A stretch of DNA of 54,992 nucleotides, taken from assembly GCA_013297565.1 (NCBI GenBank), contig JAAFHK010000001.1, forward strand, positions 1 through 54,992. The letters are read 5' to 3'. The number at the start of each line of letters is the position of its first letter. The stretch's first letter is position 1. Below are positions 27,429 through 40,079 of the stretch, one piece after another. The DNA comes from Cytophagales bacterium. Lineage in GTDB: Bacteria; Bacteroidota; Bacteroidia; Cytophagales; Thermoflexibacteraceae. Under the pieces are notes generated by a model that ran no database searches, had not been told where the DNA came from, and saw nothing but the letters and a program-made list of their open reading frames with translations. The position numbers were made by a program, and so were the translations under genes.

Positions 27429-30400
27429 TTAAAACCCCACTTCGTAATAATCCACAATTGTATCATCTGCATCACGCAAGGCAATGGATTTTAGCCAGTA
27501 GCGCAAAGCATTCGGTTTTACTAATAATAAAGTATCGTACCCTTCAATATAATCATACTCACGCAAAACTCGTGTGTAGATTGCCCCCCGATTTTCTTCG
27601 GTATTAAAAATCAGTTTTTGCAAACTTTCATCGATTGCCTCAAAATCGCTAACTTCTTGAAAATCAAACTCTTTACTTTTGATTTTCCCATATACAAATT
27701 CATAAGCCGTAAAATTGGGCATTTGATACACTCGACCTACTTGCCATTTTTGCAAAATTACACCGCTTTCGTCTTTTTGTTCATACACAGCATTCATAAT
27801 TTTACAAAACACTTTGCCAAAGTTTTCGAGTTGAGTTTTGGTTACTTTTTGGTAAAGTTTTTTGGCATCTCCTTGACTGTCTTTTTGCAGATGTCTGTAA
27901 TACTTCAACAAATCTTTTATGACAATTTTTTCCGAATCAGAAGGGTTTAGATAAAACTTGTCTTTGGGATAGGGCAAATTATCCAAATCTTCTTTAATGA
28001 TAGCATCACCACGATAAACAAGCGCCTTAGAACTTGTTGCCAAAACAAATGCACTATAAAGGCTTGCTAATTCTTCATCTTGGTACAATCTTTCATAAAC
28101 TTCATAAAGTCCTTTTTTATCTTCCATTGGCGCTGATATACCAACAAAACTACTATTAAAGCATAAATATTCTTCTACAAAAGCCGTAGATATTTTGTCT
28201 TTAATTACCAATTTTAAAATAATATGAGGCGGTTCATAAAGTTCTTTGTTTCGTGTTTCAACAAATCCTTCCAAACTTTCAGTAATGATCTTATAAGTTC
28301 CATCGTCTTTGAAAGATCTTGGTTTTATAGTAGGTTTGCCTGTAATGAAGTTTGCAGGAATTTTTTTCTTATTTTTATGTTCCGAGATATAACCAACATT
28401 ATAAAGCCATTTTGATTTTTTTTCTTTATTTTCTAAAAATTGTCCCAATTTATCAACCATACTCAATCGATCAATCAAATGAAACAGCCGCCCACCACCC
28501 AATAAATTAGTTTTCCAAATAAATTGCTTATTTTCATCGACTGCCCAAGACCAACGCACAAAATGACGATCATAATGATCAATCTGAAAAGCCAATTTGT
28601 TTTCAGTATTGATAATTCTATTAATAATTGTATGCTCAATAGGTTCTTGTTTAGAAGGTTGCGGTTCAGCTATGATCGTGCATACTGAAACTTTTGCGCT
28701 ACCAAAAAGAGTATCCTTGAGTGGTGTAAAATCAAAAATTACTTTTATATTGAAATCAGAGAAAACTAATTTTCTATATTCAAAAGCATTTTTTGAATAT
28801 AGAAACTCGCTTGACTTAACAATTAGGCATACTTTTTTGCCCAAAGTTATAGCACCCTCAAAAAAATGCAGAGTAAAATTATTATCAGGTAATTTTGGGT
28901 GTCGAAAATTAATGTGGGCTGAATCTGTGAAATTAATAGTATAATCAATAACTCCCTTTTCATCTTTTTTATAAATATAATCCTCTAATTTTTTACCTGT
29001 TTCAAAATTAAAAGGCGGATTCCCAATTACCAAATCGAAATCTCTATGGACGGTGCTTGCCCATTCGAAGAAATTTTTATCCTTAATATTTTTAGCACTC
29101 AGATTCTTAAATTGAAATTCACCCCACAATAATTTGGGATCAATTTTATTTAAAAAAGCAATCGTAAGACTAAAAATCGTGATTTGTGTAGCCGTTTCAT
29201 TTATATCTACACCAAAAATATTATTTTCTAATATTTCTTTGAAAGTATTGGATACTTCCTCTTTTAGTAATTGTAAAGATTTTTTTTCTTCGTCAGAAAG
29301 ATCGTCATCTGGCAAAGATAATTTCACTACTTTATCAAAATTATTAATTGCCCACCAATCCAAAAGACGTTTATAAGCCGCTACCAAAAAAATACCTGAA
29401 CCACACGCAGGATCAAGCACTTTGTAACTAATTTTTTCTTCTTTCCAATAATTTTGTTTGGGTAAGTTCAAAGGCATGACTTCATCAATCAAAAAATTGA
29501 CTAAAAACGGTGGGGTATAAACTACACCTTTTTCTTTGCTTTTGCCTTGATTTTGGGTTTCAGACTGCAAAAAATTTTCATAAATTGAACTAATCAGTTC
29601 AATAGGTATAAAATCGAAATTATATTTTCGCCAAATGGAAATTTGCTTGGTCTTGGCATCTGTTGTTCCTTCAACAAACAATGCTATATCTGATAAATTT
29701 TGCCCTTTGATAAAATTTTCTTCTTTTTCGGTCAAAATATCAAATATTTTACCGTTGTATTTGTTCGCTAATTCATTGATAAACCGAATACAAAGTTCTC
29801 CATTGCCATCTTTTCGTAAAATTTGAGTAAAATTTTTTGTTTGATATTGATTACTATAATTTTCATATTTTTTACTCAAAGCAAAATCACCTTTACTATC
29901 TTTCTTTTCTTCTAAAAACATGACTAAAATAGAAAGCAATAAAAGGCGATCTAAAGCCATTTTTTGTTCAGCATTTAGCCCTTTTTTCGCTAATTTAGTT
30001 CTTGTTTTTTCTAACTGATCCAACAAAATATGAAAAGGCGTTTGTTTTTCGTCCAACTCCCAAGTTCCCTGTTCCCAAAACATTCCCTTCCCGAAAATAT
30101 GGGCGGAAAAACGCTGATCATTAAATTTTTCTAAAACTCCACTCCAAAATTCTAAATTTTCAAGACTTAAAAAATTATTTTTTGTAATTTCGGCTGGTTT
30201 TCGTGCATTGATAACTTTGAGTTCGGTTTTTCCGACAACCATATAGACATCTACCTCACCTGCACTCCAAATTTTGGCGTGAAGTTCAGTTTCAGTTTGG
30301 CTATTAAAAGCCTTTTCTTTTTCGAATATATAAACACTTGGTTTTGAATTAGTTAGTTCATGATTTTCATTAAAATAACGCCTGAATAAAACCGCACTTG

Positions 30401-30548
30401 CTCCTAATTTTTTGGCTCTTTCCTCGATATGTAACCATTCGGCATTATTATTCCGATCAGGATTGTCGCAAAGGACAAGCCCATTTTCTTCGGTAAAATG
30501 TATTTTTTTGAGAGCCGCAAGAGTAGGATCAAGTGTATTAGTTGCCAT
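27429..30548 (-). CDS. Eco57I-type N6-adenine DNA methylase (type IIG-like restriction-modification protein)
   Basis: A 1039-residue protein. Methylase motif I is LDPACGSGIFLVAAYKRLL (about 380-398) and motif IV is NPPFNF (about 511), which specify an amino-methyltransferase. The N-terminal domain (about 35-120) has the AEWLHIEERAKKLGA and KIWSAGEVDVYMVVG segments seen in Eco57I-like enzymes. D100, E109 and K111 are spaced like a PD-(D/E)XK site, but relatives usually lack those residues, so I do not claim a nuclease there. The C-terminal third is the likely target recognition region. I chose ATG 30548 (MATNTLDPTL) over one five codons upstream. The downstream 212-residue protein probably completes the system. 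Confidence 0.82.
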   Translation of the reverse strand: MATNTLDPTLAALKKIHFTEENGLVLCDNPDRNNNAEWLHIEERAKKLGASAVLFRRYFNENHELTNSKPSVYIFEKEKAFNSQTETELHAKIWSAGEVDVYMVVGKTELKVINARKPAEITKNNFLSLENLEFWSGVLEKFNDQRFSAHIFGKGMFWEQGTWELDEKQTPFHILLDQLEKTRTKLAKKGLNAEQKMALDRLLLLSILVMFLEEKKDSKGDFALSKKYENYSNQYQTKNFTQILRKDGNGELCIRFINELANKYNGKIFDILTEKEENFIKGQNLSDIALFVEGTTDAKTKQISIWRKYNFDFIPIELISSIYENFLQSETQNQGKSKEKGVVYTPPFLVNFLIDEVMPLNLPKQNYWKEEKISYKVLDPACGSGIFLVAAYKRLLDWWAINNFDKVVKLSLPDDDLSDEEKKSLQLLKEEVSNTFKEILENNIFGVDINETATQITIFSLTIAFLNKIDPKLLWGEFQFKNLSAKNIKDKNFFEWASTVHRDFDLVIGNPPFNFETGKKLEDYIYKKDEKGVIDYTINFTDSAHINFRHPKLPDNNFTLHFFEGAITLGKKVCLIVKSSEFLYSKNAFEYRKLVFSDFNIKVIFDFTPLKDTLFGSAKVSVCTIIAEPQPSKQEPIEHTIINRIINTENKLAFQIDHYDRHFVRWSWAVDENKQFIWKTNLLGGGRLFHLIDRLSMVDKLGQFLENKEKKSKWLYNVGYISEHKNKKKIPANFITGKPTIKPRSFKDDGTYKIITESLEGFVETRNKELYEPPHIILKLVIKDKISTAFVEEYLCFNSSFVGISAPMEDKKGLYEVYERLYQDEELASLYSAFVLATSSKALVYRGDAIIKEDLDNLPYPKDKFYLNPSDSEKIVIKDLLKYYRHLQKDSQGDAKKLYQKVTKTQLENFGKVFCKIMNAVYEQKDESGVILQKWQVGRVYQMPNFTAYEFVYGKIKSKEFDFQEVSDFEAIDESLQKLIFNTEENRGAIYTRVLREYDYIEGYDTLLLVKPNALRYWLKSIALRDADDTIVDYYEVGF

Positions 30549-30626
30549 AGTTTTAAAAATCATTATTTATTGATAAACAACGATTAAAAGTACCATAAAG
30601 TTTATAAAAAGTACAATTAGTTAAAA

Positions 30627-31581: not shown

Positions 31582-32124
31582 ATGTACGGATTGGTCAATA
31601 AAGCTGTCGAAGATTTGGTAAAAAACAACTTTGGCGAGGCTATTTGGTTGGAAATCAAAGAAAAAGCGGAAGTAAAAGAAAACACCTTTGTCGGTATGCA
31701 AAGTTATCACGATGGCATTACTTACCGCTTGGTCGGGGCGGCAAGCCAAGTGCTGGGGCTTAGTGCCGAACAAGTGCTGGAAACTTTTGGCGAATACTGG
31801 GTGCTTTATACGGCACAGGAAGGTTACGGCGAAATGTTGGATGCGGCGGGCAAAAATTTGGTAGAATTTTTGCAAAACTTAGATGCCTTGCACGTCAAAG
31901 TTGGTAATTTGATGTCCGAACTTCGTCCTCCGTCTTTCGAATGTTCCGATATTACGGATCGTTCTTTGGTTTTGCACTATTTTTCGGAGCGCGAAGGTTT
32001 AGCCCCCATGGTGGTGGGTTTGGTCAAAGGTTTGGGTAAAAAATTTAACACTCCTTGTCAGGTGAATTGGGTAGGGAGCAAAAAAACGGGCGAAGACCAC
32101 GATATTTTTGAGGTAGCTTGGTAA
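31582..32124 (+). CDS. hnoX: H-NOX heme nitric-oxide/oxygen-binding sensor
   Basis: A 180-residue stand-alone H-NOX protein (the usual length) in the cytoplasm. The proximal heme ligand is H104 in NLDALHVKVG, the heme-distorting proline is P116 or P117 in ELRPPSFECS, and the heme-propionate clamp Y-x-S-x-R is Y133, S135 and R137 in YFSEREGLAP. The region after it (GLAPMVVGLVKGLG) has no obvious distal tyrosine, so selective NO binding is more likely than stable O2 binding; this is inference. The ATG at 31582 gives the family start MYGLVNKAVEDLV. A TAATTTTG box (31435-31442) is a possible -7 element. The HNOBA-SpoIIE gene follows after 105 bp on the same strand. Confidence 0.95.
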   Translation: MYGLVNKAVEDLVKNNFGEAIWLEIKEKAEVKENTFVGMQSYHDGITYRLVGAASQVLGLSAEQVLETFGEYWVLYTAQEGYGEMLDAAGKNLVEFLQNLDALHVKVGNLMSELRPPSFECSDITDRSLVLHYFSEREGLAPMVVGLVKGLGKKFNTPCQVNWVGSKKTGEDHDIFEVAW

Positions 32125-32229
32125 TTTTTTTCGTTTTTAGGATACCTTCAATATTTTCGTGGCAGGCTGAACAAACTGTTTGCCTAAGTGTTATTTCTCG
32201 AACATCATTTGTTTTATTTTATAAGACTT

Positions 32230-33642
32230 ATGTTTAACCCAATTATTCCTATGCTTTTTGAGTTACAGAAAGAACAATTATCCTCTTTATTTCCGTTTTA
32301 TATCGTTTTTAACACGGATTTTCAAATCTTAGACTACGGCAAGTCCATAGACAAAATAATTCCTTCGATATCTGCGGAAAATAATTTTCTTTCTCTGTTC
32401 GAAATTAGCCGACCGAGAACTATCCAGCAAAAGATCGAGAACATTCTCAAAAACCAGCACTCCCTTTTTATCCTCAAAATTAAGGGTACAAATCTCGAAC
32501 TCAAAGGGCAAATGCTTAGTTTGCACGCAGATACACCTATGATTCTTTTTGTCGGCAATCCTGTTCTCAAGGATCAAGGCTTGTTAAATACGTTGGGCTT
32601 GACCCTAAATGATTTTGCTGTTTTTGACCAAACTACTGATTTTTTGTTTTTGCTTCAGTCCAACCAGAATGTGATGCAAGATTTGCAAAAATTTTCACAG
32701 CAGATCAATGAACAAAACCAACATTTGCACACCATTACCCAACAACTGCAAGCCTCACTTGAGGAACTGCAAGCCTCCGAAGAGGAAACGCGCCAAAATG
32801 CCGAAGAACTCCACGCCATTAATGAGCATTTGAGGGATACGACCCAAGAACTGCATTTGCAGAGAAAGGAACTCGAACGCAAAAATGAATATATCCTTTC
32901 CAGTATCAACTATGCCCGAAAGATTCAACAGTCTATTTTGCCCACGACCAGCTTTTTGGACAGTCTGTGGGAGAACTATTTTGTACTATTTATGCCCAAA
33001 GACATTTTGAGTGGTGATTTCTATTGGGCAGGGCAAAAGAAAAACAAGTCTTTGATGATTGCCGTAGATTGTACAGGGCATGGCGTACCGGGTGCTTTTA
33101 TGTCCCTCATTGCCAAAAATTTATTAGACCAGATCATTAACGAACAGAATATTACCGAACCCGACTGGATTCTCGAAAATATGCACGTAGGATTGCGAAA
33201 AGTTTTGAATCAACAAGAAAATTTTAGCCACGAGAGTGTAGATATTGCTGTAATTGTCATAGACAAAAAAAATAAAATTTTGGAATTTGCAGGAGCAAGA
33301 AACGCTTTGTATTTATGCCAAAACGATCAGATCACTGCCCTACAAGCCGATAAATATTCTGTAGGAGGGTATTTTTTGGAAAACAATTTAACCTTTAATA
33401 AACAAGTCATTCCCTTGAATAGTACCATGCGTATATATCTCTGCACCGATGGCTACAAGGATCAGTTTGGGGGACTTTCGAACAAAAAATACTCAAGCAA
33501 GGCACTCAAAAGCCTTCTCCTAAGCATACAAGGACAGCCCATGAGCCAACAAGCCCATTTGCTGGAAAAAGCCCTACTCGACTGGAAAAACAAAGAAGTC
33601 CAAACGGACGATATATTAATTCTGGGGCTTGAAATTAGTTAA
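32230..33642 (+). CDS. HNOBA sensor domain - coiled coil - SpoIIE/PP2C phosphatase, cognate output of H-NOX
   Basis: A 470-residue cytoplasmic protein. Residues about 10-145 match the heme-NO-binding-associated (HNOBA) domain known from soluble guanylate cyclase: FPFYIVFNTDFQI (21-33), SRPRTI (60-65), LELKGQM (89-95), ILFVGNPV (105-112) and DFAVFDQTTDFLFLL (128-142). A long coiled coil follows (about 148-222, EELQASEEETRQNAEELH). Then comes a SpoIIE-type PP2C phosphatase (about 225-470) with metal aspartates in SGDFYW (D263), VDCTGHGVPGAF (D280), CTDGYKDQFGG (D407) and QTDDILIL (D460/461). I chose ATG 32230; a GTG at 32188 would add 14 residues. The phosphatase presumably dephosphorylates a Ser/Thr target when H-NOX binds ligand. 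Confidence 0.85.
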   Translation: MFNPIIPMLFELQKEQLSSLFPFYIVFNTDFQILDYGKSIDKIIPSISAENNFLSLFEISRPRTIQQKIENILKNQHSLFILKIKGTNLELKGQMLSLHADTPMILFVGNPVLKDQGLLNTLGLTLNDFAVFDQTTDFLFLLQSNQNVMQDLQKFSQQINEQNQHLHTITQQLQASLEELQASEEETRQNAEELHAINEHLRDTTQELHLQRKELERKNEYILSSINYARKIQQSILPTTSFLDSLWENYFVLFMPKDILSGDFYWAGQKKNKSLMIAVDCTGHGVPGAFMSLIAKNLLDQIINEQNITEPDWILENMHVGLRKVLNQQENFSHESVDIAVIVIDKKNKILEFAGARNALYLCQNDQITALQADKYSVGGYFLENNLTFNKQVIPLNSTMRIYLCTDGYKDQFGGLSNKKYSSKALKSLLLSIQGQPMSQQAHLLEKALLDWKNKEVQTDDILILGLEIS

Positions 33643-37824: not shown

Positions 37825-39894
37825 TTAAGCGTTTTTGATTCGAAAACCTAAAATGGTTATGTCATCAATCTGTTTTTGATGACTTGGTTTTGTCCAATCT
37901 TCAAATGTTTTTTCCAATACTTGTTTTTGGTTTTGTGGAGGCGAGTCGGCAAGGCTATGCAGGAGGCGTTTGAGGCGTTTTGCCATAAATTTTTTGTCAT
38001 TTTCTCCACCAAACTGATCTTGATAACCGTCCGTACAAAGGTAAAACATAGTGCCTTCCATGTTTTTGAGGTGTAGGGTATGTTTTTCGTAATGTTGTTC
38101 GATCATTTCTTCTTGTTTGCCTCCAATGGGTTTTTTAGTGGCTTTTATTTCAAAAAAATTATTTTCATGCACATAAAACAGCGGGTTCATAGCCCCCGCA
38201 TATTCCAAAAGTTCATTTTTCCCTCCATTTTGGTACAAAGTTATGACCGCTATGTCCATACCATCTTGGCTTTGGTTTTCCGATTGGCGAAGGGTACGGC
38301 GGACTTCTCTGTGCAAATTTTCCAGAATTTGGTCGGGTTCATAGACTCTCATTTTGAGGATACTTTCACTCAAAATCTGGTTGGCAACCATGCTCATAAA
38401 AGCCCCAGGCACGCCATGTCCCGTGCAATCCACTACGGCAATAATCTGGGCAGTTTGCTCCGAACTTAGGCTAATTTCTTCCAAAAAATAAAAATCACCT
38501 GAAACCACATCGCGCGGTTTGAACAAAATAAAATAATCTTGGGCAAAAATCTTATCAAATTGGGTTTCGAAAGGCAGAGTTGCCTTTTGGATTCGCTGGG
38601 CGTAATTGATCGAATCAAAAACGTTCTTATTAATCGTTTGGATTTCGTTATAAGCAATATTCAGGGCGTTGTTGGTATGCAACAGTTCTTCAGCTTGGGC
38701 TTCTATTTCGCCTTTTTGGTGCTGTAATTGCTCATTTGCTTTGCGGCGTTGGGCATTAGCAAAAACCAAAAAAACAACCATAAATAAGCCCAAAATGCTA
38801 ATAATAATAAACGCATTGCGTTGAAAACTCACATAAGTTTGCTCCTCTTTGAGCAAAAGAATATGCGCCTCTTTTTCGGAAGTTTCCAATAAAACCTTCA
38901 TGCGCGAAAGTTGCAAATTGGTTTCGGACGAAAAAATAGAATCTTTAAAGATTACTAATTGTTTTTGATGCCAATATGCCGAATCGAAGCGTTTTAAGGC
39001 GGCGTAGGTTTTGGCAAACTGTTCTTCTTGAAACCGAAATTCTTCTGGATTCAACTTGCCTTTGAGTTCTTTACTGGCTTCTCGCAGATAATAAAGTGTT
39101 TTTTGATAGTCTTTTTTCTGGAAATAAATTTCTGAAATGGCATGAAAAGCCTTCAGTTTGCCATATATACTTTTCTCCTCATCAAAATAAGTCAGCGATT
39201 CAAGAATATTTTTAATAGCTATTTCCTCCTTTCCCAAATGCCACTGCAAAACGCCCAAAGATGACATTTTTAAGGCTTTCGAAGTCTTTTGCTTGCCTGA
39301 AGCACTATCCAGTTCATTAGCTTTTAACAAGAAAAAATAAGCCTCCTGATAGTCCTCCGTTTCTTTATAAATACTCGAAAGCGTTTGATAAGCGTACATT
39401 TTACCCTCCACATGATTTAGCTTTTCGAAAAGTTTGAGGCTTTCCGAAGCGTATTGTTTGGCAGTTTCGAACTGCTTTAGACGGCGATACAGTTCGGCAC
39501 TGTACTGTTTATTAAAAGCTATGCGATCTGCCAAATTGTTTTTTTCGGCTACCGAAATAGCAATCAATATTTGGTTGATGGCTTCCGAAAAATCCCCCAT
39601 GTTTCTATACCCAACCGAAGCGTAGGTATAGCTCACATTTGTCCAGTAGGCAAGCCGCTGGGCGGGATATTGAGAAAGTGTGGGTAAAAGTTTTTGGGCT
39701 TTTAGGGCATATTCGATAGTTTTTTCGGGCTTCAAAAGGCGGTATTGCCAAGCCGTTTCGAGCAAGGTTTTGACCAATAAACTATCTGCTTGGAGTTGCG
39801 CAATCACCCTTTCCAAGCTATCGACCTGCCCCAAAAGTGCTTGTTGAAACCCAAGATTAAGAAACAAAAGTATAAAAATTCCCTTTTTTAGCAT
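37825..39894 (-). CDS. TPR-containing SpoIIE/PP2C phosphatase
   Basis: A 689-residue protein. A signal-type N-terminal helix (MLKKGIFILLFLNLGFQQAL) is followed by an exported TPR-like helical domain (about 25-345). A single membrane helix (about 357-377, NAFIIISILGLFMVVFLVFA) and a short coiled coil come next. A cytoplasmic SpoIIE-type phosphatase (about 440-689) has SGDFYFLEE, VDCTGHGVPGAFMSM, CTDGYQDQFGG and IDDITILGF. The phosphatase half closely resembles that of the HNOBA protein 4 kb away. Cytophagales carry many such sensors; the TPR region would sense a periplasmic ligand or partner. The start at 39894 gives the signal helix; an upstream ATG adds six residues. Confidence 0.85.
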   Translation of the reverse strand: MLKKGIFILLFLNLGFQQALLGQVDSLERVIAQLQADSLLVKTLLETAWQYRLLKPEKTIEYALKAQKLLPTLSQYPAQRLAYWTNVSYTYASVGYRNMGDFSEAINQILIAISVAEKNNLADRIAFNKQYSAELYRRLKQFETAKQYASESLKLFEKLNHVEGKMYAYQTLSSIYKETEDYQEAYFFLLKANELDSASGKQKTSKALKMSSLGVLQWHLGKEEIAIKNILESLTYFDEEKSIYGKLKAFHAISEIYFQKKDYQKTLYYLREASKELKGKLNPEEFRFQEEQFAKTYAALKRFDSAYWHQKQLVIFKDSIFSSETNLQLSRMKVLLETSEKEAHILLLKEEQTYVSFQRNAFIIISILGLFMVVFLVFANAQRRKANEQLQHQKGEIEAQAEELLHTNNALNIAYNEIQTINKNVFDSINYAQRIQKATLPFETQFDKIFAQDYFILFKPRDVVSGDFYFLEEISLSSEQTAQIIAVVDCTGHGVPGAFMSMVANQILSESILKMRVYEPDQILENLHREVRRTLRQSENQSQDGMDIAVITLYQNGGKNELLEYAGAMNPLFYVHENNFFEIKATKKPIGGKQEEMIEQHYEKHTLHLKNMEGTMFYLCTDGYQDQFGGENDKKFMAKRLKRLLHSLADSPPQNQKQVLEKTFEDWTKPSHQKQIDDITILGFRIKNA

Positions 39895-40079
39895 AAAAAC
39901 CAAACTTACCAAACTTGGGATTGAATATCTATTTCACAAAACACTAAAGCAAATGTAGGGATTAAAATTATAATTTCTTTCATAAAAACCCTATTTTAAC
40001 CCAAATACAAACAAGTTCATGGTGCAAATCTTTATTTTTTTTCTATTTTTGCTTTTTATCAAATTATAATTTCTTTTTT

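Follow-up and report, generated by a model that had tools for sequence, protein, structure and literature searches.

An H-NOX sensor gene beside an HNOBA-coiled coil-SpoIIE phosphatase gene in a Cytophagales bacterium: a probable gas-signalling unit

The gene pair and its genome

The stretch of DNA analysed here (54,992 nucleotides, hereafter the window) is one complete contig (55 kb) of the draft genome of a Cytophagales bacterium, which comprises 4.36 Mb in 573 contigs. Two consecutive genes on its forward strand are the subject of this study. The first (31582..32124, + strand) encodes an H-NOX gas sensor of 180 aa, which matches the Pfam family HNOB (PF07700) over residues 2-161 with 179.2 bits (E 7e-53). 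An initial annotation, made from the sequence alone, had described a complete H-NOX protein, and the residues it named, H104, P116/P117 and Y133-x-S135-x-R137, are all found in the sequence and do not vary among the aligned relatives. In such alignments the protein shares 55% identity with Nostoc Alr2278 and 39-48% with H-NOX proteins of its own order. Its AlphaFold model matches structure 2o09 in Foldseek with a TM score of 0.95, normalised by the target 2o09. In the distal pocket, W73 and M143 correspond to W74 and M144 of the Nostoc H-NOX and a distal tyrosine is absent. A pocket of this W/M type without tyrosine, as in the Nostoc protein, is expected to exclude O2.

The second gene (32230..33642, + strand) was defined from the list of open reading frames and Pfam matches and encodes 470 aa. 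Its start is taken as the ATG at 32230, whereas the mechanical open reading frame opens at a GTG at 32188. The intervening gap of 105 bp (32125..32229, + strand) revealed no promoter-like or terminator-like site. Both genes share a reading frame, and the 35 codons between them are open except for two TAA triplets, the first of which is the H-NOX stop codon. In-frame H-NOX and HNOBA genes are also found in many relatives, and the arrangement may be due to chance.

Three parts can be distinguished in the product of the second gene. The N-terminal HNOBA domain, which is PAS-like (32263..32682, + strand), reaches 69.1 bits with Pfam HNOBA (PF07701; cut-off 23.4, E 5e-19) and 146 bits with our profile A1. 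A search of the PDB matched it to the H-NOXA/PAS structures 2p04 and 2p08 of a Nostoc kinase (E 1.7e-10 for 2p04) and also to soluble guanylate cyclase (sGC) beta1. From HNOBA to the phosphatase runs a long signalling helix or coiled coil (32629..32928, + strand), predicted by AlphaFold as one helix of about 100 residues (residues about 134-233 of the protein, 350-449 of the read-through construct described below). The C-terminal part is a SiaA-type SpoIIE/PP2C phosphatase domain (32929..33639, + strand, with the Pfam match at 33052-33633), identified by SpoIIE (PF07228; 54.8 bits, E 1.5e-14), by a PDB sequence match to the PP2C domain 6k4e of Pseudomonas SiaA (E 1e-37), by alignment and by fold. 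The metal aspartates in the motifs SGD, DCTGHG, TDG and TDD are invariant in the 42 relatives aligned. Pfam detected neither a kinase domain (HisKA/HATPase), in whose place SpoIIE is found, nor a class III cyclase domain in this protein. The E-values from Pfam and the PDB rule out chance matches for H-NOX, HNOBA and the phosphatase alike.

With these results, the gene order of the initial annotation is borne out: coordinates, Pfam matches and the predicted helix agree on an HNOBA-long coiled coil-PP2C/SpoIIE protein 105 bp behind H-NOX, and the metal aspartates that it had counted as complete are kept. It had also proposed a search with the three Pfam families and made its reading dependent on HNOBA at residues 10-145; all three families were found with the bit scores given above, HNOBA in this region.

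Structure models were calculated for two segments. A read-through construct comprised H-NOX, linker, HNOBA and helix, with the stop codons read as glycine, and its alignment included 17 natural in-frame H-NOX/HNOBA pairs. In the resulting model (pLDDT 80) H-NOX and HNOBA are folded and are followed by the helix of 100 residues. Among its PDB matches, chains of sGC beta1 rank first, aligned over about 412 columns with an rmsd of about 15. At this rmsd the match speaks for the same domain order and folds as in sGC beta1 rather than for the same packing, and docking of H-NOX on HNOBA was not reproduced in the single-chain model. The phosphatase segment was modelled with a pLDDT of 96.6 and a TM score of 0.92 to SiaA.

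According to profile searches, the window harbors the only HNOB and the only full HNOBA of the genome, which contains nearly 90 SpoIIE domains. Seven SiaC and five SiaB-like (DUF6272) genes are located in adjacent sets on other contigs. One set consists of consecutive genes for PAS/GAF-SpoIIE, DUF6272 and SiaC, another of SpoIIE, DUF6272 and SiaC, comparable to SiaABC. Two clear RsbW-type kinases were found as well. The numbers, nearly 90 SpoIIE domains as against five SiaB-like, seven SiaC and two RsbW-like proteins, describe many phosphatase inputs onto few kinases. Directly beside the HNOBA-SpoIIE gene there is no siaB, siaC or rsbV; its neighbours include a PfkB-family kinase. At a distance of 4 kb, a second SpoIIE protein with the order TPR - coiled coil - SpoIIE is encoded (37825-39912, - strand). 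Upstream of the pair, an Eco57I/MmeI-type restriction-modification methylase gene (27429-30563, - strand) lies in a stretch of low G+C content (32% vs about 39%) and adjoins an uncharacterised gene of 212 aa, perhaps as part of an acquired island.

HNOBA effectors in other genomes and the origin of the pair

To date, the effectors of HNOBA proteins have been surveyed here in 390 genomes of the order, 395 of the phylum, 245 of another class of the phylum and 395 of the host's own class, some of them counted repeatedly. An H-NOX profile scan across about 85,000 species was evaluated for the best 80 of 552 relatives, mostly cyanobacterial loci. Raw Pfam HNOBA matches in the order were rejected as HNOBA proteins where the match is confined to the helix that precedes cyclase domains (profile positions about 160-216), as in many cases; for later surveys profiles A1 and A4 took their place. 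Effector classes were assigned by motifs and small local profiles, and phyla outside Bacteroidota are unevenly represented.

At the best 80 of 552 H-NOX loci, H-NOX is partnered by HNOBA proteins of the histidine kinase or GGDEF type. The Bacteroidota surveys and these loci together yielded 161 distinct HNOBA sequences, including 125 kinases recognised by motif, four GGDEF proteins, 31 cut or unclassified sequences and a single SpoIIE protein, that of the window. The HNOBA proteins L058, L064, L068, L114, L127 and L128 were no longer treated as unclassified once their C-termini had been read and found kinase-like. No second HNOBA-SpoIIE fusion appeared in 20 further regions retrieved to complete cut HNOBA proteins. 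A search of plasmids gave no match. A survey of this kind had been suggested in the initial annotation, and it leaves the window protein as the sole phosphatase fusion among the classified HNOBA proteins.

In cyanobacteria and Bacteroidota alike, full HNOBA genes are mostly preceded by an H-NOX gene, and in relatives the two commonly overlap, whereas the window pair is separated by 105 bp. Some HNOBA genes have no H-NOX in the retrieved flank, so that HNOBA may take other inputs. Two cyanobacterial loci (L057, L065) carry an HNOBA-GGDEF gene directly 5′ of H-NOX and an HNOBA-kinase gene directly 3′, and there H-NOX apparently serves two effectors.

The window H-NOX belongs to a Bacteroidota clade of 15 rows (SH-aLRT 88) nested in a clade of 33 rows with a support of 100, and its HNOBA to a matching clade of 17 rows (support 87); both are quick trees, in which supports of 87-88 are moderate. 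Since the trees agree, the pair was most likely inherited together. A recent cyanobacterial source had been considered and was dropped when wider sampling placed the pair in the Bacteroidota clade in both trees.

In 6 of the 12 surveyed genomes of this clade, no more than about 1 kb separates the H-NOX/HNOBA-kinase pair from a SpoIIE gene, the expectation being about 1% per locus (133 SpoIIE matches in 37.6 Mb of eleven clade genomes). Counted by family, linkage in 4 of 8 has a probability of about 2e-6, a figure still inflated by relatedness. Five of the six linked genes encode REC-SpoIIE proteins: three are co-directional in the order H-NOX, HNOBA-kinase, REC, REC-SpoIIE, and two are convergent, with one or two REC genes lying in between. 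The sixth is located directly upstream of H-NOX and is broken off by a contig end. Loci of H-NOX and HNOBA-histidine kinase with REC and REC-SpoIIE (L236-L240) come from the Bacteroidota families f80, f86, f88 and f101 and apparently represent a recurrent relay from NO to a phosphatase.

In the SpoIIE tree, the clade-linked genes form two separate groups, and the window phosphatase is placed among paralogues of its host (44% identity). From this pattern, SpoIIE genes seem to have become linked to this H-NOX/HNOBA lineage on more than one occasion, the case in the window being a direct fusion that would do without a phosphorelay. With a domain drawn from the host's own SpoIIE set, the fusion looks to be a shortcut that arose independently. 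The REC-SpoIIE genes were also considered as the source of this domain and were rejected on the SpoIIE tree.

Proposed mechanism and competing explanations

With good though not high confidence, we regard H-NOX and the HNOBA-SpoIIE protein as a gas-signalling unit in which the phosphatase is switched through HNOBA and the coiled coil. Its complex formation, gas and substrate we infer as follows. The stand-alone H-NOX would bind NO (or CO) at ferrous heme and dock on the PAS-like HNOBA domain of a dimeric HNOBA-SpoIIE partner. The ligand-induced change would then be passed to the long coiled coil and alter the pairing of the two SpoIIE/PP2C domains at their switch helices. As an outcome, Ser/Thr dephosphorylation of a partner-switching phosphoprotein would change, most likely of a host SiaC-like protein, whose kinase would be of the SiaB-like DUF6272 type, or of an RsbV-like STAS protein. 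SiaC- and RsbV-like proteins are candidate partners by genome content and by phosphatase family (PMC7647112).

Signalling helices between sensors and PP2C domains have been noted as a general arrangement (PMC1592074). In RsbU, stabilisation of the linker helices by a partner makes the phosphatase domains dimerise at the switch element and so activates the enzyme, and RsbP, a PAS-coiled coil-phosphatase protein, is predicted to act likewise with its partner RsbQ (PMC12143880). The window pair is laid out in this way, its partner being a heme sensor, and we therefore favour gas-dependent control of phosphatase pairing. Against the unit count the lone direct fusion in a draft of 573 contigs, the absence of siaB, siaC and rsbV beside the gene, the lack of docking in the single-chain model, HNOBA proteins elsewhere whose retrieved flank contains no H-NOX, and the moderate tree supports. 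For the relay idea of the initial annotation, pairing, domain identities and the signalling link are well supported by the sole H-NOX and full HNOBA of the genome, the agreeing trees and the SpoIIE genes beside related pairs; as a mechanistic model, RsbQ/RsbP is closer than the sGC it had named. HNOBA had likewise been presented as an sGC-type partner. The match to sGC beta1 stands, but the nearest architecture is the H-NOX with HNOBA-histidine kinase of cyanobacteria and Bacteroidota, where HNOBA is routine.

Soluble guanylate cyclase is activated by NO. This and, by partner logic, the activation of RsbU argue against a reverse polarity of the same complex, in which unligated H-NOX keeps the phosphatase active, or ligated H-NOX inhibits it, and NO turns dephosphorylation off. 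The diguanylate cyclases Dgc1 and Lpg1057, which are inhibited by NO-bound H-NOX (PMC8846402), nevertheless make this a serious contender, if of somewhat less than even probability, and the sequence itself is neutral. A phosphatase turned on by gas, as first annotated, is unproven, because NO inhibits in several characterised H-NOX/effector pairs (PMC8846402). That H-NOX senses mainly CO, the heme redox state or O2 is unlikely: oxidation can reportedly activate some H-NOX proteins (PMC12329717), but the W73/M143 pocket without distal tyrosine is that of the 55% identical Nostoc protein.

Two further explanations dispense with the complex or with the gene itself. Neighbours without physical contact, the HNOBA-SpoIIE protein being driven by another input, could account for a 105-bp gap where overlapping genes are usual and for HNOBA proteins without a nearby H-NOX; given the agreement of the H-NOX and HNOBA trees, the general adjacency in relatives and a genome with no other H-NOX or full HNOBA, we consider this improbable. 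More improbable still is an assembly chimera that joined the HNOBA gene in silico to one of the many host SpoIIE genes. A draft of 573 contigs, nearly 90 SpoIIE domains and a fusion seen once would fit it, but the frame is open, the domain boundaries are correct, the helix is continuous, the contig is 55 kb long, and G+C content is host-like across the junction (HNOBA 36%, coiled coil 43%, SpoIIE 39%).

Significance and comparison with known systems

H-NOX proteins are known to act on guanylate cyclase, histidine kinases, GGDEF/EAL enzymes and chemotaxis receptors. A literature search, mostly of papers outside subscription, found no relevant report of H-NOX or HNOBA with SpoIIE or a serine phosphatase, in line with the initial statement that no characterised example is known. 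In a review of c-di-GMP pathways, HNOB and HNOBA occur only with GGDEF proteins (PMC8846402). Apparently, no phosphatase has yet been described as a direct output of H-NOX sensors; H-NOX/HNOBA effector pairs as such are known, and the phosphatase output would be the new element. On balance, we find it probable that H-NOX sensors can directly switch a Ser/Thr phosphatase without cyclase, kinase or c-di-GMP enzyme, and that the wiring of one H-NOX/HNOBA lineage to SpoIIE was repeated in Bacteroidota, where at least two lineages of SpoIIE stand next to H-NOX/HNOBA-kinase pairs and one case is a direct fusion. If true, NO sensing would be joined to Ser/Thr partner-switching, a logic used for stress sigma factors and, in SiaABC, for biofilm signalling. 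The pair would also offer a compact two-protein system for testing the action of H-NOX through HNOBA and coiled coil, a question still under debate in soluble guanylate cyclase.

Several known systems resemble the pair in part. The Nostoc H-NOX with its HNOBA (H-NOXA) histidine kinase (2p04/2p08) likewise places HNOBA-coiled coil-effector behind an H-NOX encoded on its own, but with a kinase as effector where the window pair has a phosphatase. Soluble guanylate cyclase beta1 shows the same order of H-NOX, HNOBA/PAS and coiled coil; in the window, H-NOX is a separate protein and the output is a phosphatase instead of a cyclase. Bacillus RsbP/RsbQ and RsbU/RsbT share the PAS-coiled coil-PPM phosphatase with a separate partner, which is activating in Bacillus (PMC12143880), whereas the window partner is a heme sensor rather than an alpha/beta hydrolase or RsbT, and the PAS domain is HNOBA. 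Pseudomonas aeruginosa SiaA (SiaABCD) has the same phosphatase type by sequence and fold, and SiaB-like and SiaC proteins are present in the host, but the sensor differs and siaBC genes are absent beside the window gene. The REC-SpoIIE loci have the H-NOX/HNOBA clade and a nearby SpoIIE output in common with the window; there, the phosphatase would be reached via kinase and receiver domain, and the SpoIIE domain belongs to other lineages. These loci lend themselves to comparison with the window fusion, as the relay and the direct form of one circuit.
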